From positions 1 through 32,231 of the forward strand of contig CALBFA010000078.1 of assembly GCA_937888365.1 (NCBI GenBank): 32,231 nucleotides of DNA. The letters run 5' to 3'. A program made the translations under genes and the position numbers. The notes beneath the pieces are model-generated. The model saw nothing but the letters and a program-made list of their open reading frames with translations. It made no database searches and had not been told where the DNA came from. Position 1 is the stretch's first letter, and each line of letters starts with the position of its first letter. Source of the DNA: an uncultured Fidelibacterota bacterium (GTDB lineage Bacteria; Fidelibacterota; UBA8477; JABMPR01). This document shows, piece after piece, positions 2,996 through 32,224 of the stretch.

Positions 2996-3340
2996 TTAGA
3001 AGGCTTTAAATGCTTCTTCTTCACTCTCCACGATTTGAAATATGCCTTCAAGTTTGCTGACTCTTATCAATGATTTGATTCGAGGTTGCGGATCAATTAA
3101 AAACAACTTCCCTTCGCGAAGATCGGCTTGTCTTTTTGCAAATAACAATCCACCTAAACCAGTACTATCGACCATTTTGACATTTTTCATATCGATTAGA
3201 ATATGTTGAAATTTTGTCTCACCATCACCAATAGCGATAAACACATCTCTTTTAAATTCTTTCACACCGACAACGTCAAAAACTGTATCAACCACATGAA
3301 TAATTAACGCGTTGTCTCTAATTTGGGTTTTAAACTTCAT
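2996..3340 (-). CDS. STAS-domain protein, anti-sigma factor antagonist type
   Basis: 114-residue single-domain STAS protein of the SpoIIAA/RsbV type. The conserved site VDSTGLGGLL (57-66) carries the serine (S59) that a partner serine kinase normally phosphorylates; when unphosphorylated, such proteins bind an anti-sigma factor or another switch partner. The length is that of a bare STAS domain. No anti-sigma kinase, phosphatase or sigma factor gene lies nearby, so the partner is unknown. The start ATG has AAGGAAG upstream (about 3347-3353). The predicted leader is about 75 nt and contains a stable hairpin. Transcription diverges from the SLC12 gene. Confidence 0.9.
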   Translation of the reverse strand: MKFKTQIRDNALIIHVVDTVFDVVGVKEFKRDVFIAIGDGETKFQHILIDMKNVKMVDSTGLGGLLFAKRQADLREGKLFLIDPQPRIKSLIRVSKLEGIFQIVESEEEAFKAF

Positions 3341-3721: not shown

Positions 3722-5935
3722 ATGTCAGATAATAAAAGAAGTTTAGGAACTTTTGATGGTGTTTTTACACCCACAATTCTAACAATCCTTGGTGTTATTA
3801 TGTACTTACGGATGGGTTGGGTCGTGGGAAATGCTGGTTTTGGCGGCGCCATACTCATCATCGTTTTAGCTAAAATTATTACCATCAGTACTGGATTTTC
3901 AATATCCTCGATGGCTACTAACTCCAAAGTCGGTGCAGGTGGATTCTATTCCTTAATTTCACGTTCTTTAGGATTAGAGGTCGGCAGTGCCGTCGGTATT
4001 CCACTATTCCTCTCTCAAGCCCTCGGTGGTGCATTATATATCGTCGGTTTTACGGAAGCATGGTTGGCAATTTTTCCATTGCACAGTGCTATATTGGTCT
4101 CTGTATCAGTTTTGTCTATTGCTTTTATTATTAGCATTATCGGAGCACAATTCGCTATGCGTAGCCAATATTTAATTATGGCGATTATCTCCTTATCCTT
4201 GCTATCTTTGTTTCTTGGGGCGACACCCGAAACGATTGAATTAACTACAATAGGCTCTTTTCCTAATGCAAGTTTTTGGACTGTTTTTGCCATATTTTTC
4301 CCCGCTGTAACAGGTATTTCCGCAGGAGCGGCGATGTCTGGGGAGTTGAAAGACCCGGGTAAATCATTACCTCTTGGAATTTTATCAGCTATTGGAATTG
4401 GCTTTGTTATCTATGTGGCTGTCGCTTTTTGGTTGGACCGTTTAGCCACTACCGAACAACTATTAACCAATAATGTCATTATGTTCCAAATTTCAAGATG
4501 GCATTATTTAATTGTTGCGGGCGTGTTAGGTGCAACCTTTTCCAGCGCATTAGGAAGTATTTTAGGTGCACCGCGAACATTGATGGCTATGGGACAAGAT
4601 AAAGCCATACCATTTCATAAAACGATGAGTAAAACGTATTTAGGCGGCGAACCAATTCCCGCATTAATTTTTACATTTATCATTATTCTGGTTTGTTTAC
4701 TGTTGGCTGACTTAGATACTATCGCTCCCCTATTGACGATGTTTTTTCTGGTTACATATACAACCATTAACGTCGCTGTTGCCATTGAAAACGGTCTTGG
4801 AATCCCCTCCTTTCGTCCTCGCTTTAAAACACCACTTTGGGTTTCCATTATTGGTGCGATTTGGGGGATTATTGTCATGTTTTTAATCGATCCTCTATTT
4901 GCTGGAGTTGCCTGGATTCTAGTTTTAATTTTCTACATTATTCAAATAAAAAGACGCCTTCTAACACCCTGGGGCGACATTCGAATTGGTATCTTTAATG
5001 CCATTGCTGAGTGGGGAGCACGCAAGGTTTCTCTATTCTCTAAAAACCCAAAAACATGGAAACCAAATGTAATGGTTCCCATCGAAGATCCCCAAAACTG
5101 GCCATTGTTAATGAATTTTTTAAGAGATTTAGTCTTCCCATCAGGAACTATTAGATTGTTTTCGGTACGCCTTTTAGATGAAGGAGTTCATGTCATCGTT
5201 CGTGGAATAGCAGGTCAACTTTTCGGGAAAAGGTTTCAAGAAAAAGAACAAAAAAGAATTCAACAAGCCGAGATTGAAGTTAATACCATTGAAACTCAAC
5301 TTGAAAATCTACTAGCTCCCGTACAGGCAGAAGGCTTGCTCGCCACCTCAACAGTTATTGAATGTAATAACTTTTTAGAAGGAATGAGTATTATTACCCA
5401 AGTCATGCGCGGGATGCACTTCCCACCCAATATGATTTTTTTAACCTTGAGTTTTGACAATAAAAAAGACGATAAAGTTGAAGAAATGATAACCATTGCT
5501 GTCAGAGAGAAACTCGGAATTGTCATTTTTTCTCAACACCCTCGTTCTGCATTAGGGCATCAACAAGTTGTTAATATTTGGTTACGAATGAGTAGTCCTA
5601 ATAAAGATTTAACAGTACTTCTAGCCCTTCAACTAAAAAATAATTGGCGATGCAAACTCTGCTTTATTACCGTCGTTTCGGATGAGTCTCAGAAGGATAA
5701 CTATAAAATTATACTCGAACGACTCATTGATCGCACGAGAATGCCAAGTGATACGGAAAGTCTCGTACTTGTGGGAGATTTTGCACAATGTCTGAGAGAA
5801 GCTCCTGTCGCTGATCTAAATATTTTCGGATTAAGCAACGAACTAAACGCCAACATCATGCACGATTTAGCCGACAATGCAAATACATCATGCCTTTTTA
5901 TTCGTGATGGCGGTGACGAAAGTATGGTCGTCTAG
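3722..5935 (+). CDS. SLC12-type cation-chloride cotransporter-like permease
   Basis: 737-residue membrane transporter of the APC superfamily resembling the SLC12 (Na-K-Cl / amino acid) group. The N-terminus GTFDGVFTPTILTILGVIMY followed by RMGWVVGNAG matches the first-helix signature of that group. About 12 hydrophobic segments run to residue 420. A soluble C-terminal region of about 310 residues follows, as in eukaryotic SLC12 proteins; its alternating beta/alpha pattern recalls a USP-like fold. The substrate cannot be read from sequence: cations with chloride, or amino acids, are both possible. The ATG at 3722 follows AAAGGGA (3709-3715). The gene has its own strong promoter and a clear downstream terminator, so it is monocistronic. 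Together with CLC it suggests osmotic or chloride homeostasis, which is inference. Confidence 0.9.
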   Translation: MSDNKRSLGTFDGVFTPTILTILGVIMYLRMGWVVGNAGFGGAILIIVLAKIITISTGFSISSMATNSKVGAGGFYSLISRSLGLEVGSAVGIPLFLSQALGGALYIVGFTEAWLAIFPLHSAILVSVSVLSIAFIISIIGAQFAMRSQYLIMAIISLSLLSLFLGATPETIELTTIGSFPNASFWTVFAIFFPAVTGISAGAAMSGELKDPGKSLPLGILSAIGIGFVIYVAVAFWLDRLATTEQLLTNNVIMFQISRWHYLIVAGVLGATFSSALGSILGAPRTLMAMGQDKAIPFHKTMSKTYLGGEPIPALIFTFIIILVCLLLADLDTIAPLLTMFFLVTYTTINVAVAIENGLGIPSFRPRFKTPLWVSIIGAIWGIIVMFLIDPLFAGVAWILVLIFYIIQIKRRLLTPWGDIRIGIFNAIAEWGARKVSLFSKNPKTWKPNVMVPIEDPQNWPLLMNFLRDLVFPSGTIRLFSVRLLDEGVHVIVRGIAGQLFGKRFQEKEQKRIQQAEIEVNTIETQLENLLAPVQAEGLLATSTVIECNNFLEGMSIITQVMRGMHFPPNMIFLTLSFDNKKDDKVEEMITIAVREKLGIVIFSQHPRSALGHQQVVNIWLRMSSPNKDLTVLLALQLKNNWRCKLCFITVVSDESQKDNYKIILERLIDRTRMPSDTESLVLVGDFAQCLREAPVADLNIFGLSNELNANIMHDLADNANTSCLFIRDGGDESMVV

Positions 5936-6049: not shown

Positions 6050-7663
6050 ATGATTAAAACAAAACTTCTTTATCAATTTCTACTGAATGTCGTATCGTTT
6101 ATTTTTGGCCCCCTATTATTGCTGAATATTTTCTCGGAAAGTCATTTTCAATTTCATGTGCTAGGATTTATCGTTTCCCTTTTTGGCTTTTTCCTTTACT
6201 TCCGCGCTATTACAGATATTCTGCATTTTGGACAAGGATTTCCACTTTTCGGACTTTTTCCTAAGCGCCTTGTAAATCAGGGACTTTATACCAATAATCG
6301 ACATCCCATTATTTGGGCAACTTTATTGTATATTTTAGGCTTATTGATGTCTTATTCCCTTGATTATGCAACAATCACTATATTATTATCCATGACTTTC
6401 ATTTTATTAACCACCTATACTAAGATTATGATTGATCGAAAATTGTTGCGCTTGTTTAATGAAGATTTTATCACCTATAAAAATAGCGTCCCGTTTCTAA
6501 AATGGAAATTTATCAAATCGTCTGACATCAAAATTTCGCTCGCTCATCAAATTGTTTGGTTCTTTTCCGTCATTTTCTTCAGTATAAAATATCGAATATC
6601 TGTAACTGGGTTTCATCATATTCCCCTAAAACCGCCGTTTGTTGTTGTTGCACCCCATCAATGCTACTTCGACCCTTTCCTTTTCGGTGGATTCATTCCT
6701 TACAAAGTTCATTATATTACGACAGCCGATGTCTTTAAATCGAAATTCTTAAAATTTGGACTCGATGCGATTGGTACTATTCCCATTCGACGACACGTCC
6801 AAGATTTAAAAGCCATCCGAAAAATGTTAAATTTAGTCAAACGAGGTCAACCCGTTGGTATTTTTCCCGAAGGCGGTCGAACCATGGATGGCCGACCTCT
6901 CGAAATCGCTCCCGAAACCATAAAATTTATTCAAAAATGCAATGCACCTATTTTGCCATTGAAAATGAAAGGTGCCTTTGAAATTTGGCCTAGATGGTCA
7001 AAGGTACGACGATCAGGGAAAGTTGAGATTGAGTTTCAACCGGTTATTCCTGTTGAAGATCAAGGGGATTTAGACACACTTACGAAACGTATTAAATCCT
7101 CGATTTTTTATGACGAAACCAACTATTCTCCCACGACCTCTAAAAGGCGAGGGCATGGACTCAATGAATTGCTTTGGTCGTGTCCAGAATGCCATGAAAA
7201 CGATACAATTCAAAGTGATGGGAAAATGTCGATTTCCTGTCGTCATTGTCATGAACAATGGGACGTCTCTCCAAAGCTTCATTTAATTGGGAAACAATCA
7301 TTTACAATCGCATCATGGCTTGATACGATTCGATCTGATATTTCGCCGTTAAAATCATTCGATCCCGAATATGATTTTGAACCAGATGAAAATGCCTATC
7401 TTTTTTCAGATGTTCTATCCTATATCATTGATGACGAAGTTATCACTACGGAAAATTTATCGTTAATGATGACGAATAAAAACATTGTATTATTTCAAAA
7501 TACTAAAGTATTAGAAATATTCCCTTTTCAAGGCATCACATATTTCTCAAAGGATTTTCATCATAAATTGTCTATCGCTTTGAAAAGAATTCGCTACACT
7601 TTCGCTTTGCAGAAAACCGATATCCAAATGAAATGGTTTGATTACTTTAATAAATTGAAATAA
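6050..7663 (+). CDS. Fusion: ICMT/PEMT-like membrane methyltransferase domain + PlsC-type acyltransferase + zinc ribbon
   Basis: 537 residues in at least three parts. Residues 1-150 are membrane-spanning and carry GLYTNNRHPIIW (79-90, with the RHP motif) and EDFITYKNSVPFL (138-150), both typical of isoprenylcysteine carboxyl methyltransferase / phospholipid methyltransferase domains. Residues about 165-345 form a PlsC-like lysophosphatidate acyltransferase domain with the HX4D motif (H203-D208) and FPEGGRT (272-278). Residues 378-400 form a zinc ribbon (C378, C381, C397, C400). The last 110 residues look like a small beta-rich PH-like domain, a weaker call. A plausible role is two-step lipid modification in the inner membrane. 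The gene has no spaced Shine-Dalgarno sequence and may be leaderless. Confidence 0.85.
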   Translation: MIKTKLLYQFLLNVVSFIFGPLLLLNIFSESHFQFHVLGFIVSLFGFFLYFRAITDILHFGQGFPLFGLFPKRLVNQGLYTNNRHPIIWATLLYILGLLMSYSLDYATITILLSMTFILLTTYTKIMIDRKLLRLFNEDFITYKNSVPFLKWKFIKSSDIKISLAHQIVWFFSVIFFSIKYRISVTGFHHIPLKPPFVVVAPHQCYFDPFLFGGFIPYKVHYITTADVFKSKFLKFGLDAIGTIPIRRHVQDLKAIRKMLNLVKRGQPVGIFPEGGRTMDGRPLEIAPETIKFIQKCNAPILPLKMKGAFEIWPRWSKVRRSGKVEIEFQPVIPVEDQGDLDTLTKRIKSSIFYDETNYSPTTSKRRGHGLNELLWSCPECHENDTIQSDGKMSISCRHCHEQWDVSPKLHLIGKQSFTIASWLDTIRSDISPLKSFDPEYDFEPDENAYLFSDVLSYIIDDEVITTENLSLMMTNKNIVLFQNTKVLEIFPFQGITYFSKDFHHKLSIALKRIRYTFALQKTDIQMKWFDYFNKLK

Positions 7664-7804
7664 CATTTTTCTTATTTATTTATTTCTGTAACAACATCGG
7701 ATCTCTTTAGCTTCCTGATACGTCGATTGATTTCTCTCGCTATTTAGTTTCTTTTCTATTTCATATTGCCGTTTATCTTGTCGGAAAATCAAATAGAGGT
7801 CTGC

Positions 7805-9727
7805 GTGAAAAAAACAAAACACCTTCCTGAAATAACTGTAAAAGCTGTCATACTCGGCATTGTTTTAAGTATGATTTTAGCGGGAGCAAATGCTTATCTG
7901 GGTCTTTTCGCTGGGATGACAGCATCGGCTTCTATTCCCGCTGCAGTGATTAGTATGGGAATATTCCGACTCTTTAAAAAACATAATATTTTAGAAAATA
8001 ATATTGTCCAAACTGCGGCTTCAGCGGGCGAGTCCCTTGCAGCAGGCGTTATTTTTACAATTCCAGCTCTCATTTTAATGGGATATTGGAAAACTTTTGA
8101 TTACTGGGAGATTGCAAAAATTGCAGGCATTGGTGGATTGATAGGTGTCCTTTTTACAATACCCTTACGACGCGCTCTTATAGTAGAAGCAAAATTAAAA
8201 TTCCCTGAAGGTATCGCAACTGCCTCGGTTTTACGAACTGGAGACTCTGACGACGACAGCGATAAAGATACGCGTGAAGGCGACTTAAAAACGTTAATCT
8301 GGGGAAGTATCGTAGGAGCCATCATGAAATTTGGTCAACAAGCTTTGGCTTTATGGGGTTCCTCTATTGAAACCGTACAGGTGATGACTGTTACGCGTGG
8401 ACAAGCCGCTTTAGGGCGTTCGATTTTTGGGATGGGGATGGATATTTCTCCTGCCCTCCTTTCTGTCGGTTTTATTGTCGGACGGAATATCGCGATACTC
8501 GTTTTCGCTGGAGGACTAATTTCTTGGGGTTTCGCAATTCCTATCTACACATATTTCAACCCTTTTGACGGTAATGCAATGGATGCGGCTTGGGATATTT
8601 GGAATGAAAAAATTCGTTATCTCGGCGTTGGGGCAATGGTTGTAGGCGGTATTTGGTCCTTTATTAAACTTTTAAAACCTTTGATTATCGGCATTAAAGC
8701 CAGTCTCAATACCTATAGTTCCTTAAATACTAATATTGAAATTAAGCGCGAAGAACAAGACATTCCTATAAAATATGTTGGTATTGCTTTAGCCATTCTC
8801 ATTATCCCCATGTATTTTATGTATTTAAATGTTCTTCAGTCAAACAGTATAGCATTGATTGTTACGTTTATTATGGTTGTATTTGGATTCCTTTTTTCCT
8901 CCGTTGCCGCCTATATGGCTGGCGTTGTAGGTTCTTCCAATAATCCAATTTCAGGTGTAACAATCGCGACAATTCTTTTTTCATCCCTACTTCTTCTGGC
9001 TCTTATGGGAGCAGGTAGTATGGAGGGAGCTGCGGGTTCTATTTTAATTGGCGCAGTGGTCTGTGCAGCGGCTTCTATTGGCGGCGATAACATGCAAGAT
9101 TTAAAAACGGGCTATTTGCTTGGCGCGACGCCATGGAAACAACAAGTGATGCAAATTGTGGGAACCATTAGTGCCGCACTTGTTTTAGGTTTTGTTCTAG
9201 ATATCCTTCACACGGCTTATACAATAGGTTCGACGGATCTCCCAGCACCTCAGGCTACATTAATGAAATCCGTAGCAGAAGGTGTGTTTCAAGGGAATTT
9301 GCCATGGAATTTTGTTATTTGGGGAGCCGTTTTAGGCATTGTTATTATTTTAATGGATGTCTTTCAAGAGAGGCGAGGTTCGGATTTTAGGATACCCGTT
9401 CTTGCCGTTTCCGTCGGTATTTATCTTCCTATCGAGCTTTCAACTCCCATATTTTTGGGAGGGATGATAGCTCATTATTTAAAAATTGTAACACAATCTG
9501 ATATTGTTGAAAAACGAGGCGTTTTACTTTCTGCTGGATTAATTACGGGCGAAGCCCTCATGGGTATCATCGTCGCGCTCCCAATATTTTTTACGATGGA
9601 TAAAGAATGGTGGCCCAATATTGCTGGATTCGAAAGTTTAGGATTAATATTTTTCGCCTTAATCATTTACTGGTTTATTTCCTTGCGTAAGATGAATCAC
9701 TCAACATCTACAGAACAAACATTATAG
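7805..9727 (+). CDS. OPT-family oligopeptide transporter
   Basis: 640-residue inner-membrane transporter of the OPT family, which takes up small peptides or metal-peptide complexes. The N-terminus KHLPEITVKAVILG followed by ANAYLGLFAGMTASASIPAA is characteristic of bacterial OPT proteins, and conserved NNP (about residue 380) and GGDNMQDLKTGYLLGATPW segments follow. About 15 hydrophobic segments span the whole length. I place the start at the GTG at 7805, preceded by AGAGG with 5-nt spacing; an in-frame TTG at 7766 would add 13 residues not typical of the family and lacks a ribosome binding site. Adenosine deaminase follows after 16 bp, so the two are probably co-transcribed for nutrient uptake and salvage. 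Exact substrate unknown. Confidence 0.93.
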   Translation: MKKTKHLPEITVKAVILGIVLSMILAGANAYLGLFAGMTASASIPAAVISMGIFRLFKKHNILENNIVQTAASAGESLAAGVIFTIPALILMGYWKTFDYWEIAKIAGIGGLIGVLFTIPLRRALIVEAKLKFPEGIATASVLRTGDSDDDSDKDTREGDLKTLIWGSIVGAIMKFGQQALALWGSSIETVQVMTVTRGQAALGRSIFGMGMDISPALLSVGFIVGRNIAILVFAGGLISWGFAIPIYTYFNPFDGNAMDAAWDIWNEKIRYLGVGAMVVGGIWSFIKLLKPLIIGIKASLNTYSSLNTNIEIKREEQDIPIKYVGIALAILIIPMYFMYLNVLQSNSIALIVTFIMVVFGFLFSSVAAYMAGVVGSSNNPISGVTIATILFSSLLLLALMGAGSMEGAAGSILIGAVVCAAASIGGDNMQDLKTGYLLGATPWKQQVMQIVGTISAALVLGFVLDILHTAYTIGSTDLPAPQATLMKSVAEGVFQGNLPWNFVIWGAVLGIVIILMDVFQERRGSDFRIPVLAVSVGIYLPIELSTPIFLGGMIAHYLKIVTQSDIVEKRGVLLSAGLITGEALMGIIVALPIFFTMDKEWWPNIAGFESLGLIFFALIIYWFISLRKMNHSTSTEQTL

Positions 9728-9743
9728 AAATCGGAGAAGTATT

Positions 9744-10796
9744 ATGAAACCCGTTACGCGCGAATTTATTCATCGTTTACCAAAGCCTGAACTCCATTGT
9801 CATTTAGATGGTTCTTTGCGGATTGAAACCATGTTAGATATTGCCCAGAAGGAAAAAATTGAACTCCCTTCAAAAGATCCAGATTTATTATTAAAAGCAG
9901 TTGCTGTTTTGGACAAAGTTAAAAATCTAGAAGAGTATATTGAAAAGTTTGGCATTACTCTATCTGTTTTGCAATCTCCTGAGTCCTTACGTCGTGCTGC
10001 TTTTGAACTAGCTGAGGATGCAGCTAAAGAAAATATTAAATACATTGAAGTTCGGTATTCCCCTATTTTGCATAACAACCATGGCATGACTCCCATGCAA
10101 AGCTTAGATGCTGTTCTAGAGGGTCTTAGGGAAGCTGAGAGCGAATTTAATATTCAAACAGGTGTCATCATTTGCGGGATTCGAAATATTTCTCCCGATG
10201 TATCGCTTCAACTGGCCGAATTAGCCGTGGCGTATAAATATCGTGGCGTCGTTGGCTTTGATTTAGCAGGAGCCGAAGAGAATAATCCCGCTAAAGCGCA
10301 TATCGGTGCATTCTACTTAACACGGAATAATAATATCAATATCACATTACACGCTGGTGAGGCCTATGGTCCGGAAAGTATTCATCAAGCCATACATTAT
10401 TGCGGTGCCAACCGGATTGGACATGGAACGCGCCTTAAAGAAAACGGCGACTTATTGAATTATGTCAACGATCAACGCATTTGTTTAGAAATTTGCCTCA
10501 ATTCCAACGTGCATACGCAATCTATCAAAAAGATTGAAGATCATCCAATACGATTGTATCTTGACTATGGTTTGAGACTTTCATTAAATACAGACAATCG
10601 ACTTATTTCAAACACAACGCTAGTTGATGAATACATGACGGCCTATAAATATTTTAATTTTAATATGTTAGATTTCAAAGATATCATCATTTCTGGATTT
10701 AAAAGTGCATTTTTACATCATAGAGAACGAACGCGTCTTATCAAAGATGTAGCAGATGAGATTGATGACTACCTTGGTATTGTTCATCCTCATTAG
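9744..10796 (+). CDS. add: Adenosine deaminase
   Basis: 350 residues, the usual bacterial length. It deaminates adenosine (and deoxyadenosine) to inosine in purine salvage. The zinc and active-site motifs are all visible: HCHLDGS (H18, H20), HAGE (203-206), IGHGTR (H227) and LNTDN (D284). The last motif reads TDN rather than the TDD of many family members; such variants exist among bacterial adenosine deaminases, but adenine or other adenosine-like substrates cannot be excluded by sequence alone. The ATG at 9744 follows GGAGAAG. It lies 16 bp after the OPT transporter gene and is followed by a hairpin terminator, so it is the last gene of a two-gene operon. Confidence 0.92.
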   Translation: MKPVTREFIHRLPKPELHCHLDGSLRIETMLDIAQKEKIELPSKDPDLLLKAVAVLDKVKNLEEYIEKFGITLSVLQSPESLRRAAFELAEDAAKENIKYIEVRYSPILHNNHGMTPMQSLDAVLEGLREAESEFNIQTGVIICGIRNISPDVSLQLAELAVAYKYRGVVGFDLAGAEENNPAKAHIGAFYLTRNNNINITLHAGEAYGPESIHQAIHYCGANRIGHGTRLKENGDLLNYVNDQRICLEICLNSNVHTQSIKKIEDHPIRLYLDYGLRLSLNTDNRLISNTTLVDEYMTAYKYFNFNMLDFKDIIISGFKSAFLHHRERTRLIKDVADEIDDYLGIVHPH

Positions 10797-23492: not shown

Positions 23493-23576
23493 TCAATCCT
23501 GAAATAAAGAAACAAATTCGAATTTATGACCATCAAATAGGCCTTTATCACTTAATTTCAGATTTGGGATGACGAG
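23493..23576 (-). pseudogene. Remnant: C-terminal 27 codons of an adenine deaminase gene
   Basis: In a frame different from the overlapping pilB end, this stretch reads LVIPNLKLSDKGLFD, a short spacer, KFEFVSLFQD and stop. From memory, the pattern (L/P)VIP-x-(L/I)-(K/R)-(L/I)-(S/T)-D-K-G-(L)-x-D...KFE is how bacterial adenine deaminases (Ade) end. No start codon or upstream part of the gene is present: the frame runs back only a few codons to a point where the sequence becomes pilB. I read it as the 3' stump left by a deletion. Identity rests on a short motif, so confidence is moderate. Confidence 0.55.
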
Positions 23577-24283
23577 TCTGCTAAAATTTTTAATCTCGAT
23601 ATGAGGGGGTTCATGCTTTCTTTTGGAACGGTATAATATTGTTGCAATACACCGTCGACACGGAAGCGAATACGTACATCTTTTTCTCTAGGTTCAAAAT
23701 GGATGTCACTGGCGCCTACTTTGATGGCTTCACCAAAAAGTAAGTTTACCGCTGCGACAACTTCAGTATCTCCGCCAATTTCTTTTGATACAACGCGTGA
23801 GCGATCATCGACGGTTCCATCTTCATTTTGCGTATGTACAGCATATTTTGCTGCACTATAATACATATCAATAGCCTGTTCAATATCACTTTCGGTTGCT
23901 AGTATGATGTTGATTTCCATCCCCGTATCGAGGCTCAAGTCGTCAATAATTTCTAGATTCATCGGATCCGAGATGGCAATCGTTAAAGATTCGCCTAAGG
24001 CAAAAAGAGGCATGACTTTATTTTTACGTGCAAAATCTTCTTTAATATATTCAAGTATTTTTTGCTCAACTTCATAGACCATTAAATCAAGGGTTGGTAT
24101 GCCAAGTTGCTCACTAAGGATGTCCGTAAGATCGCGTTCACTTAAAAAGCCAAGAGCTAAAATCGCTTTCCCGAGATACATGCCATGAATGTCTTTATAT
24201 TCCAGCGCTTCTTCGAGTTGGTGCGAGTCGAGCTTCCCTGCATCGATTAATAATTGTCCTAGTTGTTTTTTCATTTCAGCCAT
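23558..24283 (-). pseudogene. pilB: Truncated type IV pilus assembly ATPase PilB (N-terminal part only)
   Basis: The 241-residue frame matches the first 40% of PilB/GspE, which is normally about 560-570 residues. The MshEN-type N-terminal domain (about 5-150) is complete, and the ATPase domain begins properly (ASDIHFEPREKDVRIRFRVDG, about 190-213; MNPLISRLKILA). It then switches to DSSSQI and stops, exactly where the family continues with DLDIAERRxPQDGR. Walker A, Asp box, Walker B and His box are absent, and no remnant of them occurs in any frame downstream. The lost part is replaced by an adenine deaminase tail. It is therefore almost certainly inactive as an extension motor. It starts 11 bp after pilD with AAGGA upstream. 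Confidence 0.85.
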
Positions 24284-24294
24284 GAATTTCGTCC

Positions 24295-25077
24295 TTAAAA
24301 AGCGACTCTAATGTACCAATCAATGATGTCTTGATAACACAAAATGCTTATGAATGTCCCGAATCCCATAAAGGGGCCAAAGGGTATTTTCTGACCAATC
24401 TCCAATTTCCCAAAAGGTAACAAAGCCAAAATAAATACAGATGCGCCTAAAAACGTCATCGCGACTGCAACAATACCCGCCTTCCATCCTAAAATGAGTC
24501 CGATTACAAAGGCGTATTTCACATCGCCCATTCCCAAACTTTCCTTTTTAAATACTTTTTCACCAAGGAATCCAATAATGTAAAATCCTAAACCCAGAGA
24601 AAAAGCTCCGATGAGTGCGGGAATTAACATGGTTACACCTTGACCGAAGTATAAAGGTAAAAGCGCAAATATTCCGAGTAACAGGAGGCCATTCGGAATG
24701 ATATAATGATCCATATCAATAAATGTGATGGCAATAATCAAAATCGTGAAATAAGCCATCCCAACAAATTGCCAATTGGGACCTAAAACATAAAATAATA
24801 AAGTGAGTAATAAGGCAGTTAACAGCTCGACACTGGGATATCTCAGAGAAATGTGCATCCCGCATGACGAGCACTTCCCTCTCAATAATAAATAACTAAG
24901 GATTGGGATATTTTCTTTGGCTGTAATTTGATGTCCACATTGAGGGCATTGGGATCGAGGCTTTACAATCGATTGTTCCAAAGGAACGCGATAAATAATA
25001 ACATTTAAAAAGCTGCCAATCGCGAGTCCGTAAACAAATACGAGTATGGCAAGGATTAGCATGTTATTGTCTATCAT
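24295..25077 (-). CDS. pilD: Type IV prepilin peptidase / N-methyltransferase
   Basis: 260 residues. This inner-membrane aspartyl protease cleaves the leader of prepilins and methylates the new N-terminus. The cytosolic zinc-type tetracysteine motif is complete (C44, C47, C69, C72), as are the catalytic aspartates in IDMDHYIIPN (D121/D123) and GMGDVKY (D185). About seven hydrophobic segments are seen. The start overlaps the stop of the receiver gene by 4 bp, so it is translationally coupled in the pilus operon. The prepilin genes it would act on are not in the window. Confidence 0.95.
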   Translation of the reverse strand: MIDNNMLILAILVFVYGLAIGSFLNVIIYRVPLEQSIVKPRSQCPQCGHQITAKENIPILSYLLLRGKCSSCGMHISLRYPSVELLTALLLTLLFYVLGPNWQFVGMAYFTILIIAITFIDMDHYIIPNGLLLLGIFALLPLYFGQGVTMLIPALIGAFSLGLGFYIIGFLGEKVFKKESLGMGDVKYAFVIGLILGWKAGIVAVAMTFLGASVFILALLPFGKLEIGQKIPFGPFMGFGTFISILCYQDIIDWYIRVAF

Positions 25078-25442
25078 TCAGCGACTAATTTTTTTATTGT
25101 TTCAACCAATGCAGGTGGGACGACAGGTTTTGTAAGGTAGAGTGTGGCGCCAGATGTTACCGCTAATTGACGATCTTCGTCAGAATCTTTTGCGGAAACA
25201 ATAATGATAGGCGTATCACGAAAAGATGCATCAAATTTTAGTAATCGACACACTTGGAAACCATCAAGTTTTGGCAACATTAAATCAAGCATAATTAAGT
25301 CCGGATGAATTTTTCGAGCTTCTTGCAAACCTGTCATGCCATCCGAAGCTACAAAAGTCTCAAAACCTTCCCGTTCTAAAAAAAGACGAATTGGGTCTGA
25401 GAAAAAACTCTCATCGTCAACAATTAAAATCTTTTTACCCAT
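25074..25442 (-). CDS. CheY-like single-domain response regulator
   Basis: 122 residues consisting only of a receiver domain. Acidic pocket DD (9-10), phospho-acceptor D53 in LIMLDLMLPKLDG, switch serine S83 and lysine K105 (TKP) are all present. No output domain follows, so it should act by protein-protein contact, like PilG/PilH in twitching motility. It sits between the pilU-like gene and pilD and overlaps pilD by 4 bp, pointing to control of pilus function. No partner kinase gene is in the window. Confidence 0.92.
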   Translation of the reverse strand: MGKKILIVDDESFFSDPIRLFLEREGFETFVASDGMTGLQEARKIHPDLIMLDLMLPKLDGFQVCRLLKFDASFRDTPIIIVSAKDSDEDRQLAVTSGATLYLTKPVVPPALVETIKKLVAE

Positions 25443-25463
25443 TAGGTTCTACCCACTTTCCTG

Positions 25464-26573
25464 TTAATCTTGTTCAATTAAATCCAATTCAATTTTCATC
25501 GTATACGTGTTTTTAGCAACTGTTCGGATTAATAATTTCAAATCTGTTGGATGATCAGCATATTGTACGGCATCCTCTTCAGAAATCAACTCACTTTTGA
25601 ATAATTTAAATAATGATTGGTCAAAACTAATCATTCCTTCAGAATTCGAATTTTCGATGGTGCGTTGTAGGAGTTCGATTTCACCTTTATGAATTAAATC
25701 TTTAACACGTGCACTGGATAATAAAATTTCCATTGATGCTTGTCGACCACCGCCAATGCCAGGTACGAGACGCTGTGCAACAATACCGTTAATATTTTGA
25801 CTGAGTTGTAATTTGACCATTTCATGCTGGATGGGTTCAAAAAAACTTAAAATACGTTCAATTGTCTGTGACGCTGTTTTAGCATGCAGTGTGCTCAATA
25901 CAAGATGTCCCGTTTCAGCAAAAGACAGCGCTGCGTTCATCGTTGCTTGGTCACGAATTTCTCCGATTAAAAGCATTGACGGCGCTTCTCGCAGTGCGCT
26001 TTTCAACGCGGCTTGGTAACTGGATGAATCCTGTCCAATTTCGCGTTGGTTTACGACACTTTTTTTATGGCGATGCAAAAATTCAATGGGGTCTTCTAAC
26101 GTCAATATGTGGCCACTTAAATTGCTATTCCTATAATCAACCAAAGAAGCCAGTGTCGTAGATTTTCCACTTCCTGTCCCACCAACAATGAGTACTAAAC
26201 CTCGTTTGGCAAGGGCAAGTTCACCAATTAAATCAGGTAAACCAAGTTCATGAAAACTACTAATTTTCTCAATAATTTGTCTCACGACAAAGGCATCAGA
26301 ATTGCGCTGTTTAAAATAATTTACTCTAAAGCGCCCCACATTGGGCAAACTGTAAGTAAAGTCCAGTTCTCTATCTATCTGAAATTTTTCAGATTGCTTG
26401 CTCGTAAGCATTTCAAGCTTCAGTTTTTCAAGTATTTTTGATGTAATGATATCTTTTTCTAATGGTACCGTCTCCCCAGAAATATTCATCATTGGGTAAG
26501 CACCCATTGAGATATACAAATCGGAGGCATTGACCTCAACCATAACATTTAATAATTCTTCAATACTATACAT
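25464..26573 (-). CDS. PilU-like type IV pilus retraction ATPase paralogue
   Basis: 369 residues. A PilT/VirB11-family hexameric ATPase at the cytoplasmic face of the pilus machine. Walker A GGTGSGKST (131-139), Asp box TLEDPIEF, Walker B MLLIGEIRD and His box TGHLVLSTLHA are all intact. The sequence REAPSMLLIGEIRD is closer to PilU than PilT (REDPDVIVVGEMRD in the neighbour), and the C-terminal AIRNLIRE-type motif is replaced by VKDLIHKGE. In species with both, PilU assists PilT in forceful retraction. It starts four bases after pilT ends. The call as a PilT-like ATPase is sure; PilU is likely. Confidence 0.88.
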   Translation of the reverse strand: MYSIEELLNVMVEVNASDLYISMGAYPMMNISGETVPLEKDIITSKILEKLKLEMLTSKQSEKFQIDRELDFTYSLPNVGRFRVNYFKQRNSDAFVVRQIIEKISSFHELGLPDLIGELALAKRGLVLIVGGTGSGKSTTLASLVDYRNSNLSGHILTLEDPIEFLHRHKKSVVNQREIGQDSSSYQAALKSALREAPSMLLIGEIRDQATMNAALSFAETGHLVLSTLHAKTASQTIERILSFFEPIQHEMVKLQLSQNINGIVAQRLVPGIGGGRQASMEILLSSARVKDLIHKGEIELLQRTIENSNSEGMISFDQSLFKLFKSELISEEDAVQYADHPTDLKLLIRTVAKNTYTMKIELDLIEQD

Positions 26574-26577
26574 AATT

Positions 26578-27633
26578 CTATATACTGTTTATTGCTTTTC
26601 GCAATTCTTCATTATTACCCGCAACACTTAAAATGCTATTTTTTTCTACGATCCCTTCCACAATTAATCGATGGAAATGTTGTTCCATTGTTTGCATACC
26701 GAGTCTAGAACTTGTTTGCATCACCGATGCGAGCTGATAAGTTTTACTTTCTCTAATTAAGTTTCCAACGGCGGGATTTCCGATTAAAACCTCAAAGGCT
26801 GCAACACGACCCCCACCAATTTTTGGCAGCAACACTTGCGATATAACGCCAGCAACGGACTCGCTAAGCATAATTCGAATTTGGGATTGTCGATCGCTTG
26901 GATATTGGTCGATAATGCGATCAATCGTTTTCGGTGCGCTCATTGTGTGTAATGTGCCAAAAACCAAGTGTCCTGTTTCAGCGGCAGTTATAGCGAGGGA
27001 CGTTGTTTCTAAGTCTCTCATTTCACCCACAACAATAACATCAGGATCTTCTCGTAAAGCTGAACGTAAAGCCTTCGAAAAAGACTTCGAATTTGTCCCT
27101 ATTTCTCTATGATTCACGAGGGATTTTTTACTTTTATGAATGTATTCCAAAGGATCTTCCAGTGTGATGATATGCCGATGCGAGTGTGAGTTGATATAAT
27201 CAATGATTGTACTTAAAGTCGTTGATTTCCCGCTTCCCGTTGGGCCAGTAACCAAAATTAGCCCTTTATCCATATTGGCTAAATCTTTGAAAGATTCAGG
27301 CAATTGTAACTCTTCAAAAGAATAAATTCGGCTTGAGATTGCTCTTAATACGGCTGTATCGCCATAAAAACCTTGAAAGACATTGACACGAAAACGACCA
27401 ATGCCCAAAAAATCATAAGCAAAGTCAATTTCTTTTTCTTCCTCATAAATTTTACGTTCATAATCATTCATAATATCATATATGAGTAAATGAACATCTT
27501 CAGGGTTAAGACTGGGTAGTTTTGTCCGGCGCATTATACCGTCAACCCTAACAATGGGAGGAGAATTCGGACTTAAGTGTAAATCCGATGCATCCTGTTC
27601 TTTCATGAAATTAAGAAGATCAAATATTTCCAT
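26578..27633 (-). CDS. pilT: Type IV pilus retraction ATPase PilT
   Basis: 351 residues, typical PilT length. It powers pilus depolymerisation for twitching motility. Walker A GPTGSGKST (130-138), Asp box TLEDPLEY, Walker B VIVVGEMRD and His box ETGHLVFGTLHT are intact, and the C-terminal VGNLIRESK matches the AIRNLIRE retraction motif. It starts eight bases after the secretin stop, with GGTGGAAA about 14 bases from the ATG, so coupling from the secretin gene is likely. Confidence 0.94.
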   Translation of the reverse strand: MEIFDLLNFMKEQDASDLHLSPNSPPIVRVDGIMRRTKLPSLNPEDVHLLIYDIMNDYERKIYEEEKEIDFAYDFLGIGRFRVNVFQGFYGDTAVLRAISSRIYSFEELQLPESFKDLANMDKGLILVTGPTGSGKSTTLSTIIDYINSHSHRHIITLEDPLEYIHKSKKSLVNHREIGTNSKSFSKALRSALREDPDVIVVGEMRDLETTSLAITAAETGHLVFGTLHTMSAPKTIDRIIDQYPSDRQSQIRIMLSESVAGVISQVLLPKIGGGRVAAFEVLIGNPAVGNLIRESKTYQLASVMQTSSRLGMQTMEQHFHRLIVEGIVEKNSILSVAGNNEELRKAINSI

Positions 27634-27641
27634 AAACTATA

Positions 27642-29420
27642 TTACTTTCCACCTACGATTGTTGGAGTGATAAAAATGAGAAGCTCTCTTTTTTCGACGG
27701 CTGTTGAAGAATGTGAAAAGAACTTTTTGATATAAGGTATCCTTCCGAGAAATGGAATTCTATTCTCAGTTTGAATAAATTGATCGAAAATTAATCCACC
27801 AATCAATAATGTATGTCCATTTTCGACTGTGACTTTTGTATTGGTCGAACGTTCAGAAATAATGGGGCGATCCGCATTAGGACCAGCGAACCCGATTAAT
27901 GCTTGAACGACAGCATTTAAATCGAGGGCAATATAAGTCCCATTATTAACTTTGGGTTTTACGTTTAACGTAATATCAATATCCTGGTCTTCAAATGTGA
28001 TAGCTTGACTGCCAAACATGCTACCTTCTGGTTGCGGTACTGCAATGGGATACTTCGTTCCCGTTTTTACCGAAGCCCAGGTATTTTCAGTTGTGGTTAC
28101 TTGAGGTTCTTGAATGAGACGAGTTTCATTATCTGACGCTAAAACATCTAATAGCATATTAAAAACAGGCGTCGTCAAGGTGGCAACTCGCATATCTTTC
28201 ATAAGCCAGCCAAGACCCAGAGAAGTGGCGCTTGTAGTTGTACCATCAGCGTTTGTGGTTGTACCGGATACATCTGTTGGTCCTGAGATTGTTGCTCGTA
28301 AGTCCCAATTGATGCCTAATCTTTCGTCGGAACTGAGTTTTGCCTCAATAAATTTTACAGCAATGTTGACTTGAATAACGGGTTGATCTAAAGTCTCTAT
28401 CACTTCTTCAATATTTTCAAAATTATAGACATTATCTGTAATAATAAGGTGATCAGACGTTACTTCTTGTTCGCTTGTACCACCTGCACTCGCACCTGTT
28501 CCACCTGTAGCTGCTCCACCTCCAGTAGCGCCTCCGCCTGCTGCACCTCCACCGAGTGCACCCAGTAAGCCACCTGCCGCTTGTTGTCCAGCAGGGCTAG
28601 CTGCTGCTGCACCTCCACCCGAGCCACCCGATGTACCCGTTGAAACGGGTGAAAATACTTGAATTTGACCTTTTGGTGATAATACGTTCAACAAAGCATT
28701 TTGAATGGATTCGGCAGATACATATTCAACTTTATAAATGCGCGTACTGAGTTCTCCTGCCATTTCTTCATCTTTTGGCTTTATAACAATAATATTATCT
28801 TGTATAAACCAACTATAGCCATTTACCTTTAAAATAGCATCCAAAGCGGTTCCTAAATTTACTTTGGATAGTGCGACAGTAATGCGACCTTCAACTTTTT
28901 GACCTGCGATAATATTGAGGCTATGTTGATTGGCCAATAATCTCAAAAGATCAATCATTTGTGCATCTTTGAAGTTTAATGATACTTTCTTATTTAATAA
29001 TTCCATTTTGGGGAAAGAATGAATTTTAATATTTTGTTTTTTTATGGGAATCCATGAAACCTGCAAATCAATCCCATCAGGAGACGTTATCTCATATTGA
29101 GGCATGATATCAAAATATAGAGATATTTCTAAATGATTATTTACTTCATCAATTGATACTCTATATAAAGGGTCGAGTTGGAATTGCTTAATATAGTTGC
29201 CCCAAAAAGAACTCGTTTTTTTCACGATTAATAATAATCTTGGTGGACTTTGAGTTGCAATTGCCTCATATTCAACTTCACCCGTAAAGGCAAGAGTCAC
29301 CCCATTTTCATGAGGTGTATTATAAGGATAAATAGTCTCCAATACCGGAGAGTCGGCAAATAGATTCACCGAAAAGATTAAAGACATCCCCATTAAAACT
29401 AAAATATATTTATTCTTCAA
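27642..29420 (-). CDS. pilQ: Type IV pilus secretin PilQ
   Basis: 592 residues. It forms the outer-membrane gate through which the pilus passes. A clear signal peptide (1-22, MKNKYILVLMGMSLIFSVNLFA's stretch of hydrophobics ending in FA) is followed by an AMIN-like beta domain (about 25-125), an STN/N0 domain (about 145-205), an N1-type domain (220-255) and a Gly/Ala/Ser/Thr-rich linker (261-315). The secretin beta-barrel domain (about 335-590) ends with the conserved RIPFLGRIPYIKKFF and ELLIFITPTIV. It overlaps pilP by 11 bp. PilQ rather than GspD is favoured by the pilMNOP and pilT context. Confidence 0.93.
   Translation of the reverse strand: MKNKYILVLMGMSLIFSVNLFADSPVLETIYPYNTPHENGVTLAFTGEVEYEAIATQSPPRLLLIVKKTSSFWGNYIKQFQLDPLYRVSIDEVNNHLEISLYFDIMPQYEITSPDGIDLQVSWIPIKKQNIKIHSFPKMELLNKKVSLNFKDAQMIDLLRLLANQHSLNIIAGQKVEGRITVALSKVNLGTALDAILKVNGYSWFIQDNIIVIKPKDEEMAGELSTRIYKVEYVSAESIQNALLNVLSPKGQIQVFSPVSTGTSGGSGGGAAAASPAGQQAAGGLLGALGGGAAGGGATGGGAATGGTGASAGGTSEQEVTSDHLIITDNVYNFENIEEVIETLDQPVIQVNIAVKFIEAKLSSDERLGINWDLRATISGPTDVSGTTTNADGTTTSATSLGLGWLMKDMRVATLTTPVFNMLLDVLASDNETRLIQEPQVTTTENTWASVKTGTKYPIAVPQPEGSMFGSQAITFEDQDIDITLNVKPKVNNGTYIALDLNAVVQALIGFAGPNADRPIISERSTNTKVTVENGHTLLIGGLIFDQFIQTENRIPFLGRIPYIKKFFSHSSTAVEKRELLIFITPTIVGGK
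28476..28640 (-). repeat. Gly/Ala-rich low-complexity tract within pilQ
   Basis: Fifty-five codons (residues 261-315) encode almost only Gly, Ala, Ser, Thr and a few Gln and Leu. The DNA is imperfectly repetitive (variants of GGTGGAGG and GCAGCA) and clearly more GC-rich than its surroundings. It forms a flexible linker between the periplasmic and barrel domains. Confidence 0.8.
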
Positions 29421-29904
29421 GCGTTAACCTCACAACTTTCACTCCCTTTTTTAAATCCACATATGTTTCAGAAATATGAGCGATTGAATAGCCATTTACT
29501 TGGCCGCCAAGCTTTAATATATTCCCGTTAATAAGTACTATTTTTGAATCTCCTGAAACTGATATGCCGTTTAAAACAAGTGAGGTCTCATTCGTTCCAG
29601 GAATTTTGTCACCAAATAATGAGCCGAGACCGCTACTTTTAATCGTGTCACTATTAAGATAAAAAAAAGGATCTTTTGACCAATTCCCTACCCAAATAAA
29701 AGGTTCTGCCTTTTGATTAACGTACTGGTCTAAATTATTTTTTGAAATGAGCGATTCTTTTATCTCTTGTTTAGGTTTTGTAATCGCATCACTCACATCA
29801 GCTAAAAACAAATTAAAACCACCTTGATCAAAGAAAAACACAGTCGCAATCACAATCAATACCACGACCATAATGATAACTCTTTTCTTTTCGTTTTTAT
29901 CCAC
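29410..29904 (-). CDS. PilP-like pilus alignment protein
   Basis: 164 residues. A single N-terminal transmembrane helix (about 9-26) is followed by a periplasmic part ending in a small beta domain: LVLNGISVSGDSKIVLINGN, then GGQVNGYSIAHISETYVDLKKG. This is the pattern of PilP and of the GspC homology region, which links the inner-membrane PilMNO complex to the secretin. Unlike Pseudomonas PilP it has no lipobox; it is anchored by the helix. It overlaps pilO by 1 bp and pilQ by 11 bp. Placement and size strongly support the role. Confidence 0.8.
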   Translation of the reverse strand: MDKNEKKRVIIMVVVLIVIATVFFFDQGGFNLFLADVSDAITKPKQEIKESLISKNNLDQYVNQKAEPFIWVGNWSKDPFFYLNSDTIKSSGLGSLFGDKIPGTNETSLVLNGISVSGDSKIVLINGNILKLGGQVNGYSIAHISETYVDLKKGVKVVRLTLEE

Positions 29905-30491
29905 TATTTACCTTTTATTTCTTCTAAGTAAATGTACGAAAAGAGAACTAAGTCACTTGAAATACGTCCGTCTTTTTCCAACATAGTATTCATCTTAATT
30001 TTTCCAATATTAAGGGCAGATGGAATGGTTTCTAACGACTCCAAAAAAGCCCCGATTTTGAGGAAATCACCCTTAATTCTACAGTGTATTGGATAACGCT
30101 CAATATGCTTACCCGTTGTTTCTAAAATACTTTTTATAGCTGGAAAAGAATCTTCCATTTCAGGTGCGATACCCATGATTTCAACTTCATTTTTTTCGGC
30201 CAGAACTTTTATAAGTTGAAGTATTTCAACAAAATTATCACGTGTGGCGACGACATATTTCAAAGAATCGAAGTTTACCAGCTCTTCCTCATATTTTTGC
30301 TTAACTTCATCAAAATTGACATTGACGGCATTGATTTCTAGAAATTTATCTTTAATTTTGTTAAGATCATCCTCTAGGATGATTTCCTCGGTTCCGTACA
30401 CAGAGAATTCAATATAACCCCATCCTCCAGTAAGCATTAAACCGATTAATATCAAAGATATAAACATTATTTGAGCGGGGACTAATTTCAT
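29904..30491 (-). CDS. PilO-like pilus alignment protein
   Basis: 195 residues. One N-terminal transmembrane helix (about 8-26), a coiled-coil segment (about 40-80, EEIILEDDLNKIKDKF and on), and a ferredoxin-like periplasmic domain with YPIHCRIKGDFLKIGAFLESLETIPSALNIGKI's typical PilO pattern (RxKGxxxxxxxFLxxLE). PilO dimerises with PilN to align the inner and outer parts of the machine. It overlaps the upstream pilMN gene by 4 bp and pilP by 1 bp. Function assigned from domain pattern and gene order. Confidence 0.82.
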   Translation of the reverse strand: MKLVPAQIMFISLILIGLMLTGGWGYIEFSVYGTEEIILEDDLNKIKDKFLEINAVNVNFDEVKQKYEEELVNFDSLKYVVATRDNFVEILQLIKVLAEKNEVEIMGIAPEMEDSFPAIKSILETTGKHIERYPIHCRIKGDFLKIGAFLESLETIPSALNIGKIKMNTMLEKDGRISSDLVLFSYIYLEEIKGK

Positions 30492-32224
30492 AAGCTTAAT
30501 ATCAATTTAAAAAAGAGTCGCTCTGATAAAGATTTTTCCACATCCTGCATATCCAGTTCAACACGTCGAAATAATTTTGTTTGTTCAAAATTAAGTTGAA
30601 GATTTGCGATATGTATATCTGCAACTGTCAAATCAGAATCTACAAAACCTGTTAAATAAATAATATTTTCCGTTTCAACACCACCGGTTCCACTCCCACC
30701 TAATATTCTTTTATCAATATCCAAAGCCGTAAATTTTATATCTTTTGAAGGTACTTCAGATATTAATTTAAGGATTTCAACGATATTATTCGATTCAATA
30801 TTGTCATTATTTAGGAATGTTTGAAATCCTGTTAATACTTTAAGGTCGTTTCTAAAAACAAAGTAATCTTTGGCTTTCTCAGACATATTTGTCCAGGCAT
30901 TTTCTTGTTCCTGAATTTGGAATTCAATACTTTTAATATTTTGCTGTGAATAGTACATGGTAAGCCCGGCTATTGGCATAATAAAGACTAATAATATTCC
31001 TACTAATTTTGATAAATAAGTAAAATGGTAGTTCTTTTTAGTAGATTCAGGTAAAATATTTAGATTTTTTAATTGATCAATCATCAAAGCCAAATTGGGC
31101 GTTATATTAAGTAACCATTCGTGTCCGACCCTTTTTTCTTCATTCCCAGAAAAAAAGTCAATTCGCGCTGGATGTAATATTTTGGTCGTCAGGCTCAAAT
31201 TATCAGCCAGCGTTTCTGGTAATCCTGGTATTTTGCCTCCTATACCAGACACATAAATAGTATCCCAGTTGATTTTTGGATATTGCTTTTTAAAAAATGT
31301 CTGAGATCGATTCATTTCACTGGTAATTCGCTCAATAGCAGGCCTTAAAAATATTGTTACTTTGTAGAGACTTATTTTATACTCAGATATCATACCTTCT
31401 GAATTTTCAGGAATTCCATAATTGAATAAAATATTGTTAGCCATTTCATCATTTATTTCTACGACACCTTCTGGAGAAACGACCCTTTGTTTCAAAGCTT
31501 TGCGTATATCATTTACACCTATTGGAATCTCTCGAGTAAAAACGAGGACTCGATTGTAAATAACAACAATAATAGTTTGGTTGTCTCCCATATGTGCAAC
31601 GACATGACATCCCGATTTTTTATCAGGATAATTATGTACGAATAATTTCCATAACATTATTGGGAGTGTACTAATATTTCGTAAATGAAGTTTATGTTTT
31701 TTAAAGATTTTTTGATACTCTCCAATAATTGATGTATCACCCATAGCGATAATAATTTGCTTTGAAACATTTTCAAGTTCAGAATTTTTTAACATATAGC
31801 TAGTGTTGGTGTTGTCACTCCCAAAAGCTAAGTTTTTTGCGAGATTCCACTGAATAAATTCGTCTAGCTCTTTACCCTTTAACTCCGGAGCATTAAACAT
31901 TTGAGTTTTGACGGGGATGTCATCACCATAATAAGAGACACTTGAATTTGCTAGTTTTTTGCCATCCGTACATTGAGTCAGTACAAAATCGAGTACCTCT
32001 TTTGGGTCATTGTATATGATACCATCAACTTTTAGAGGTATCGGATATTCTTCACATCTTTCAATATACATACCCGAAAATGTCATCGTAATCTCAAGAA
32101 AACGAAAAGATGATTTGCCTTGATATATTGAAATCTTGGAGAGACTTTCATTGAAAAAGTTAAATAGATATCTTTCTATTTTTGGGAGTGTCAAAATAAC
32201 TGGGTCTCTGTTTAAGACTTCCAA
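30488..32224 (-). CDS. PilM-PilN fusion protein (5' end may extend beyond window)
   Basis: At least 578 residues. Residues about 30-395 resemble the actin-like PilM/GspL ATPase fold (KISIYQGKSSFRFLEI at the first strand, AMGDTSIIGEYQKIF, VVAHMGDNQTIIVVIYN, and IYVSGIGGKIPGLPETLA near the C-terminus of the fold). A transmembrane helix at about 405-427 is followed by a PilN-like coiled coil and periplasmic domain (430-578). PilM and PilN are separate, interacting proteins in most species; here they are one chain. The first in-frame start is the TTG at 32224, but no stop precedes it in the visible bases and no ribosome binding site is seen, so the true start may lie outside the window. Confidence 0.82.
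   Translation of the reverse strand: MEVLNRDPVILTLPKIERYLFNFFNESLSKISIYQGKSSFRFLEITMTFSGMYIERCEEYPIPLKVDGIIYNDPKEVLDFVLTQCTDGKKLANSSVSYYGDDIPVKTQMFNAPELKGKELDEFIQWNLAKNLAFGSDNTNTSYMLKNSELENVSKQIIIAMGDTSIIGEYQKIFKKHKLHLRNISTLPIMLWKLFVHNYPDKKSGCHVVAHMGDNQTIIVVIYNRVLVFTREIPIGVNDIRKALKQRVVSPEGVVEINDEMANNILFNYGIPENSEGMISEYKISLYKVTIFLRPAIERITSEMNRSQTFFKKQYPKINWDTIYVSGIGGKIPGLPETLADNLSLTTKILHPARIDFFSGNEEKRVGHEWLLNITPNLALMIDQLKNLNILPESTKKNYHFTYLSKLVGILLVFIMPIAGLTMYYSQQNIKSIEFQIQEQENAWTNMSEKAKDYFVFRNDLKVLTGFQTFLNNDNIESNNIVEILKLISEVPSKDIKFTALDIDKRILGGSGTGGVETENIIYLTGFVDSDLTVADIHIANLQLNFEQTKLFRRVELDMQDVEKSLSERLFFKLILSL

Follow-up and report, generated by a model that had tools for sequence, protein, structure and literature searches.

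A four-part protein of Fidelibacterota joining an ICMT/PEMT-type membrane domain, a PlsC-type acyltransferase, a predicted zinc ribbon and a PH-like tail

Results

The locus and its four-part gene

The window, that is, the whole stretch of DNA analysed (32,231 nucleotides from an uncultured Fidelibacterota bacterium), contains a gene for a 537-residue protein in which four parts follow each other from the N- to the C-terminus: an ICMT/PEMT-superfamily membrane domain (residues 1 to about 156), a PlsC-type acyltransferase (165-355), a CxxC...CxxC zinc ribbon (370-413) and a tail with a PH fold (447-537). The features are the following.

2996-3340, minus strand: STAS-domain gene (DSTG motif), conserved divergent neighbour upstream (PF01740, 2.9e-15; conservation of position)
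6050-7663, plus strand: gene for the 537-residue four-part protein (ATG start, open reading frame; homologues in the phylum)
6050-6517, plus strand: ICMT/PEMT-superfamily membrane domain, residues 1-156, about four transmembrane helices (profile, Pfam in homologues, AF2 helices, hydropathy, K/R distribution)
6299-6307, plus strand: RHP motif, residues 84-86 (R84-H85-P86), kept (R in 24/25 and P in 25/25 homologues)
6431-6436, plus strand: position of the EE motif, residues 128-129, degenerate Ile-Asp in the window (alignment with 29 free-standing proteins and 26 fusions)
6542-7114, plus strand: PlsC/LPLAT acyltransferase domain, residues 165-355 (PF01553, 1.9e-18; 5KYM; trees)
6656-6673, plus strand: HX4D motif HQCYFD, residues 203-208 (H and D in 25/25)
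6863-6880, plus strand: FPEGGR motif, residues 272-277 (E274 and R277 in 25/25)
6986-6997, plus strand: WPRW signature, residues 313-316 (PRW in 25/25 four-part members; PRW or PGW in a three-part family)
7157-7288, plus strand: predicted zinc ribbon, residues 370-413, with Cys378, 381, 397 and 400 (four Cys invariant; four strands in AF2)
7388-7660, plus strand: PH-like tail, residues 447-537 (AF2 pLDDT 93; Foldseek PH/PTB; invariant KW near the C-terminus)

In third-position GC content the gene resembles its neighbours; in overall GC content it is slightly lower. The AF2 model of the whole protein (pLDDT 86) comprises a helical bundle, a PlsC fold, a ribbon and a PH barrel. As a whole, the chain has no match above cut-off in Pfam or NCBIfam; among the Pfam matches to its parts, the acyltransferase alone exceeds the cut-off and PEMT stays below it. 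The four domains and their order, which the first-pass annotation had proposed from the sequence alone, are borne out by Pfam, the family profile, AF2, Foldseek and the invariant cysteines, and its reading of the product as a lipid-modifying membrane protein is supported as well. That annotation knew of no described example, and none of this four-part layout was found in the open-access literature searched, although this supports novelty only weakly; as far as the phylum and the searched libraries go, it is not a common annotated family of known function.

The STAS gene lies beside the fusion gene in 17 loci including the window, in the window's family (f1) and in a second family of the same order (f2); in the window, the two are separated by a gene for a cation-chloride cotransporter (3722-5935). 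Downstream, members of f1 have genes for an OPT oligopeptide transporter and then adenosine deaminase (7766-10796, plus strand, in the window), f2 has 3-hydroxyacyl-CoA dehydrogenase and acetate-kinase family genes, and Trp genes adjoin the fusion in the distant family f30. No lipid-metabolism neighbour is kept across f1, f2 and f30, and only the STAS gene is common to f1 and f2. Elsewhere in the window, a run of type IV pilus genes (23558-32224) includes a truncated PilB/GspE-type frame (23558-24283, minus strand), in which an MshEN domain is accompanied by no more of the T2SSE ATPase profile than its first ~65 positions.

The N-terminal domain

The N-terminal domain of the window's protein scores 18.4 bits against PF04191 (PEMT), below the cut-off of 25, and its assignment is supported at the level of the family. 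A profile of 25 members matched the solved structures of ICMTs over profile positions 17-159 (4A2N, 4.8e-9; 5VG9, 2.6e-7; 5V7P, 4.2e-7), PEMT was matched by 10 of 17 homologues (best 1.2e-6) and ICMT by three, one fusion member (L070) alone clears the Pfam PEMT cut-off with 35.1 bits, and another (L035) matches the NCBIfam isoprenylcysteine methyltransferase model at 2e-9. ICMT is absent among the top 50 Foldseek matches listed for the full model, the helical bundle being short, and the sequence profile is the better evidence. The profile matches and the score of L070 thus identify the domain as a genuine member, by homology, of the ICMT/PEMT methyltransferase superfamily, to which the first-pass annotation had assigned it. 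Hydropathy and the counts of Lys and Arg fit four transmembrane helices with both termini inside, which would place the acyltransferase and the tail in the cytosol.

As a control for the EE motif, the 26 fusions were aligned with 29 PEMT/ICMT proteins that occur free-standing in genomes of the phylum. The first Glu of this motif is essential in ICMT/PEMT enzymes, in agreement with its invariance in the controls (29/29), whereas it is found in only 3 of the 26 fusions (L020, L035 and L070). At the first position, the other 23 have Gln (18) or, once each, Ile, His, Asp, Tyr and Lys; these counts are not independent, because the Gln of most f1 members stems from one ancestor. The second Glu is present in 26 of 29 controls and in 25 of 26 fusions, the window having Asp. 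The distance to the next aromatic residue is equal in fusions and controls, so the loss is not an alignment shift. Read from the alignment, the changes in most f1 members (Gln), in the window (Ile), in one f2 member (Asp) and in two f30 members (Tyr and Lys) represent several separate losses of the motif, and the methylating activity of the N-terminal domain has probably been lost in the window's species.

The window's genome also encodes a 246-residue protein (G000:C22:23062-23259 = L073 1210-1950, minus strand) close to the Leptospira lipid A 1-phosphate methyltransferase LmtA; it scores 259 bits against TIGR04571 (cut-off 325) and adjoins a gene that appears PAP2-like by eye.

The acyltransferase domain

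PF01553 matches residues 182-306 of the window's protein (E 1.9e-18; 67 bits, cut-off 23) and all 17 homologues tested, and the catalytic and substrate residues H203, D208, E274 and R277 are invariant in 25/25. The nearest solved structure is PlsC of T. maritima (5KYM), both in the search with the family profile (2.2e-23) and when the AF2 model was compared by Foldseek. The acyltransferase is the most constrained part, with 50% identity between the window and the other members, compared with 24% for the ICMT domain and 28% for the PH tail.

Two specific models of acyltransferase function fall short of their cut-offs in the window: TIGR00530 (canonical PlsC, LPA acyltransferase) with 65.3 bits against 102.95, and NF006386 (Aas-type acyl-[ACP]-phospholipid O-acyltransferase) with 65.8 bits against 1221, in an alignment confined to the acyltransferase part of a protein that has no AMP-ligase domain. 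The two scores are equal in the window; in two homologues tested, the Aas-type model is ahead of the LPA acyltransferase model (92.5 versus 75 and 73.9 versus 58.5). The fusion acyltransferases form one clade (support 99/95 in a tree from which the fragmentary E. coli YihG row was left out), and the branch that unites them with AMP-ligase types in a larger tree has 60/52, a weakly supported placement on the Aas side. A separate PlsC of the same genome exceeds the TIGR00530 cut-off (132.9 bits) and clusters in the trees with its E. coli counterpart, apart from the fusions. The genome also has PlsY, as well as phosphatidylserine decarboxylase (Psd), which is present in all 21 f1/f2 genomes searched. 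De novo synthesis of phosphatidic acid would thus not depend on the fusion gene.

The zinc ribbon and the tail

The four cysteines of the two CxxC knuckles are unchanged in all 25 homologues, and AF2 predicts this region as a four-strand beta-ribbon, as is characteristic of a two-knuckle zinc ribbon. For the tail, structure prediction yielded a seven-strand barrel capped by a C-terminal helix, in accordance with a PH superfold, and the best Foldseek matches of this model are PH/PTB domains (TM-score, normalised to the target, of 0.70 for the ARAP3 PH domain and 0.58 for that of Vps36). No Pfam bPH family is among the families listed for 24 tails, unlike the situation in bacterial bPH proteins.

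Distribution and a three-part sister family

At a presence threshold of E <= 1e-40, the four-part protein was found in 26 of 245 genomes of Marinimicrobia/Fidelibacterota, with 21-38% identity: in 20/20 genomes of f1, in 3/3 of f2, so that all 23 genomes sampled from the window's order carry it, and in three of f30. The f30 copies retain all four parts at 21-28% identity to the window. Relative to the window, f29 (see below) and f30 were placed at the level 'same phylum'. The fusion is real and old. Its spread, which the first-pass annotation had left to a survey, is thereby established within the phylum; beyond it, a contig scan with narrow peptide patterns retrieved only matches confined to the acyltransferase (Planctomycetota, Actinomycetota, Chlamydiota), and a plasmid collection contained nothing beyond PlsC-domain matches.

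A search with the tail alone retrieved the fusions and, more weakly, ten matches from eight f29 genomes. The complete f29 frames encode 415-453 residues that comprise acyltransferase, zinc ribbon and PH tail, and no match to the ICMT domain was found in nine loci examined, even at E <= 1 (one locus, L138, is masked across the acyltransferase region and another, L145, is ended by the contig end). The f29 acyltransferases join the fusions with support of 100/97, and the fusions are set apart from f29 with 85/63. This sister placement implies that the ICMT domain was either gained on the fusion branch or lost in f29. Because ribbon and tail occur in f29 without the methyltransferase domain, they belong with the acyltransferase; on this comparison of domain content, the stable unit is acyltransferase, zinc ribbon and PH tail, and the methyltransferase domain is an accessory.

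Two other acyltransferase fusions were encountered. An 822-residue protein (L124:2486-4951, minus strand) combines AMP-ligase, ACP and PlsC domains, Aas-like with its own carrier domain, and has relatives in f6, f9, f30 and f31. Mutual exclusion of this type and the four-part fusion was considered and rejected: full-length versions are absent in f1/f2, yet both occur in f30 (G227; partial in G230). On a Chlamydiae contig (L046:7308-8696, plus strand), one open frame joins a part that looks cytidylate-kinase-like by eye to a PlsC-type acyltransferase.

Discussion

On balance, we lean towards a membrane-anchored lysophospholipid-type acyltransferase, in which the N-terminal domain is an anchor or a lipid- or cofactor-binding module and the tail docks or regulates. 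The protein would be a PlsC/LPLAT-superfamily enzyme at the cytosolic face of the inner membrane that transfers a fatty acyl group from acyl-ACP or acyl-CoA to a lysophospholipid-type acceptor, and thus would act in remodelling or re-acylation beside canonical PlsC. Remodelling of lysophospholipids, or of related lipids, is favoured because the canonical pathway is separate and the Aas-type model is ahead in two homologues. The ICMT-type four-helix bundle would serve as the bilayer anchor and may have retained the ability to bind lipid or SAM, although it would no longer methylate in the window's species and most relatives. Zinc ribbon and PH domain together would make up a tail in the cytosol, with a role either in docking, on lipid headgroups or on a partner, or in gating of the acyltransferase. 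Since methylation is probably lost, attachment of fatty acids to lipids is most likely the protein's one reaction and not one of two. What is said here of the acyl donor, its acceptor and a role for the ICMT domain is inferred. It should be noted that RHP and the second Glu are present in most fusions and the EE motif in three, so some of them may still bind the cofactor or even methylate.

More specific ideas about the N-terminal domain are less secure. It might have taken on a new, non-catalytic function as a module that presents lipid or senses SAM and that feeds or gates the acyltransferase, while the PH domain reads the surface of the membrane, so that methyl-donor or lipid status would control acyl remodelling; this we put forward tentatively, as a rather unlikely scenario. 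A family that is functionally split, with a catalytic methyltransferase only in EE-bearing members (some of f2 and f30) and a decayed one in f1, is of similarly low probability: the motif is confined to L020, L035 and L070, of which L035 and L070 are also those with the methyltransferase-model matches given above, but the first Glu varies (Asp, Tyr, Lys) even inside f2 and f30, which suggests weak constraint there as well.

The first-pass annotation had suggested that the protein may methylate and acylate the same substrate, that is, a bifunctional enzyme whose N-terminal domain methylates a headgroup amine, carboxylate or phosphate of the lipid that the PlsC domain acylates. The part of this proposal that stands is the lipid-type nature of both domains, which come from lipid-acting superfamilies. 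There is also a precedent, because RhlM, a bacterial ICMT-family enzyme, methylates a lipid to produce rhamnolipid methyl esters, and a conserved Glu, one or other of the pair, and the His contact SAM (PMC11069360). In line with this, RHP and the second Glu are mostly retained, and three fusions keep the complete EE motif. Methylation as such is weakened by the replacement of the first Glu in 23 of 26 fusions including the window, by the three-part sister without a methyltransferase domain, and by the ICMT domain being the least conserved of the four parts, so that two reactions on one lipid now appear unlikely.

A reductase-like member of the ICMT fold (DUF1295/steroid 5-alpha-reductase type), using NAD(P)H instead of SAM, would explain the DUF1295 matches in 8 of 17 homologues (best 1e-5), but is very improbable, as the top solved-structure matches are SAM-dependent ICMTs and the PEMT matches are stronger and occur in more members. 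An assembly or annotation chimera, which might be suspected because the window's N-terminal domain alone falls under the Pfam cut-off, is refuted by the identical four-part reading frame in 26 genomes, mostly of other species and from separate assemblies, a recurrence that also argues against chance and frameshift.

The membrane-anchored acyltransferase that we favour adds to the bacterial lipid acyltransferases an apparently undescribed layout from an uncultured marine phylum, one in which a lipid enzyme of bacteria bears a PH-fold domain. Three-part versus four-part proteins and EE-bearing versus EE-less members offer a clean natural comparison of what a decaying integral-membrane methyltransferase domain gives an acyltransferase.

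Compared with known systems, the protein shares HX4D, the Arg of motif II, FPEGGR and the Pro of motif IV with the PlsC/LPLAT superfamily (5KYM), but differs from it and from Aas-type proteins in that its acyltransferase is preceded by an ICMT-type membrane domain and followed by the zinc ribbon and PH tail. With ICMT/PEMT methyltransferases (4A2N, 5VG9; RhlM) it has in common the membrane helices, the GxY...RHP motif, the second Glu and the YxxY region, whereas most fusions lack the first Glu of EE, an acyltransferase is attached, and the window's copy is under the Pfam cut-off. The seven-strand barrel and C-terminal helix of its tail are those of PH-fold domains (ARAP3, Vps36; bacterial bPH). 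The AMP-ligase-ACP-PlsC protein of the same phylum (L124) likewise fuses the acyltransferase to lipid-related domains, but with other partners, without zinc ribbon or PH tail, and in other families, co-occurring with the fusion in f30. Closest are the three-part f29 proteins (L139-L146), which have the same acyltransferase clade, the four Cys, a PH tail with the conserved Trp and the PRW/PGW signature, and differ by the missing ICMT domain and an identity of ~20% to the window.
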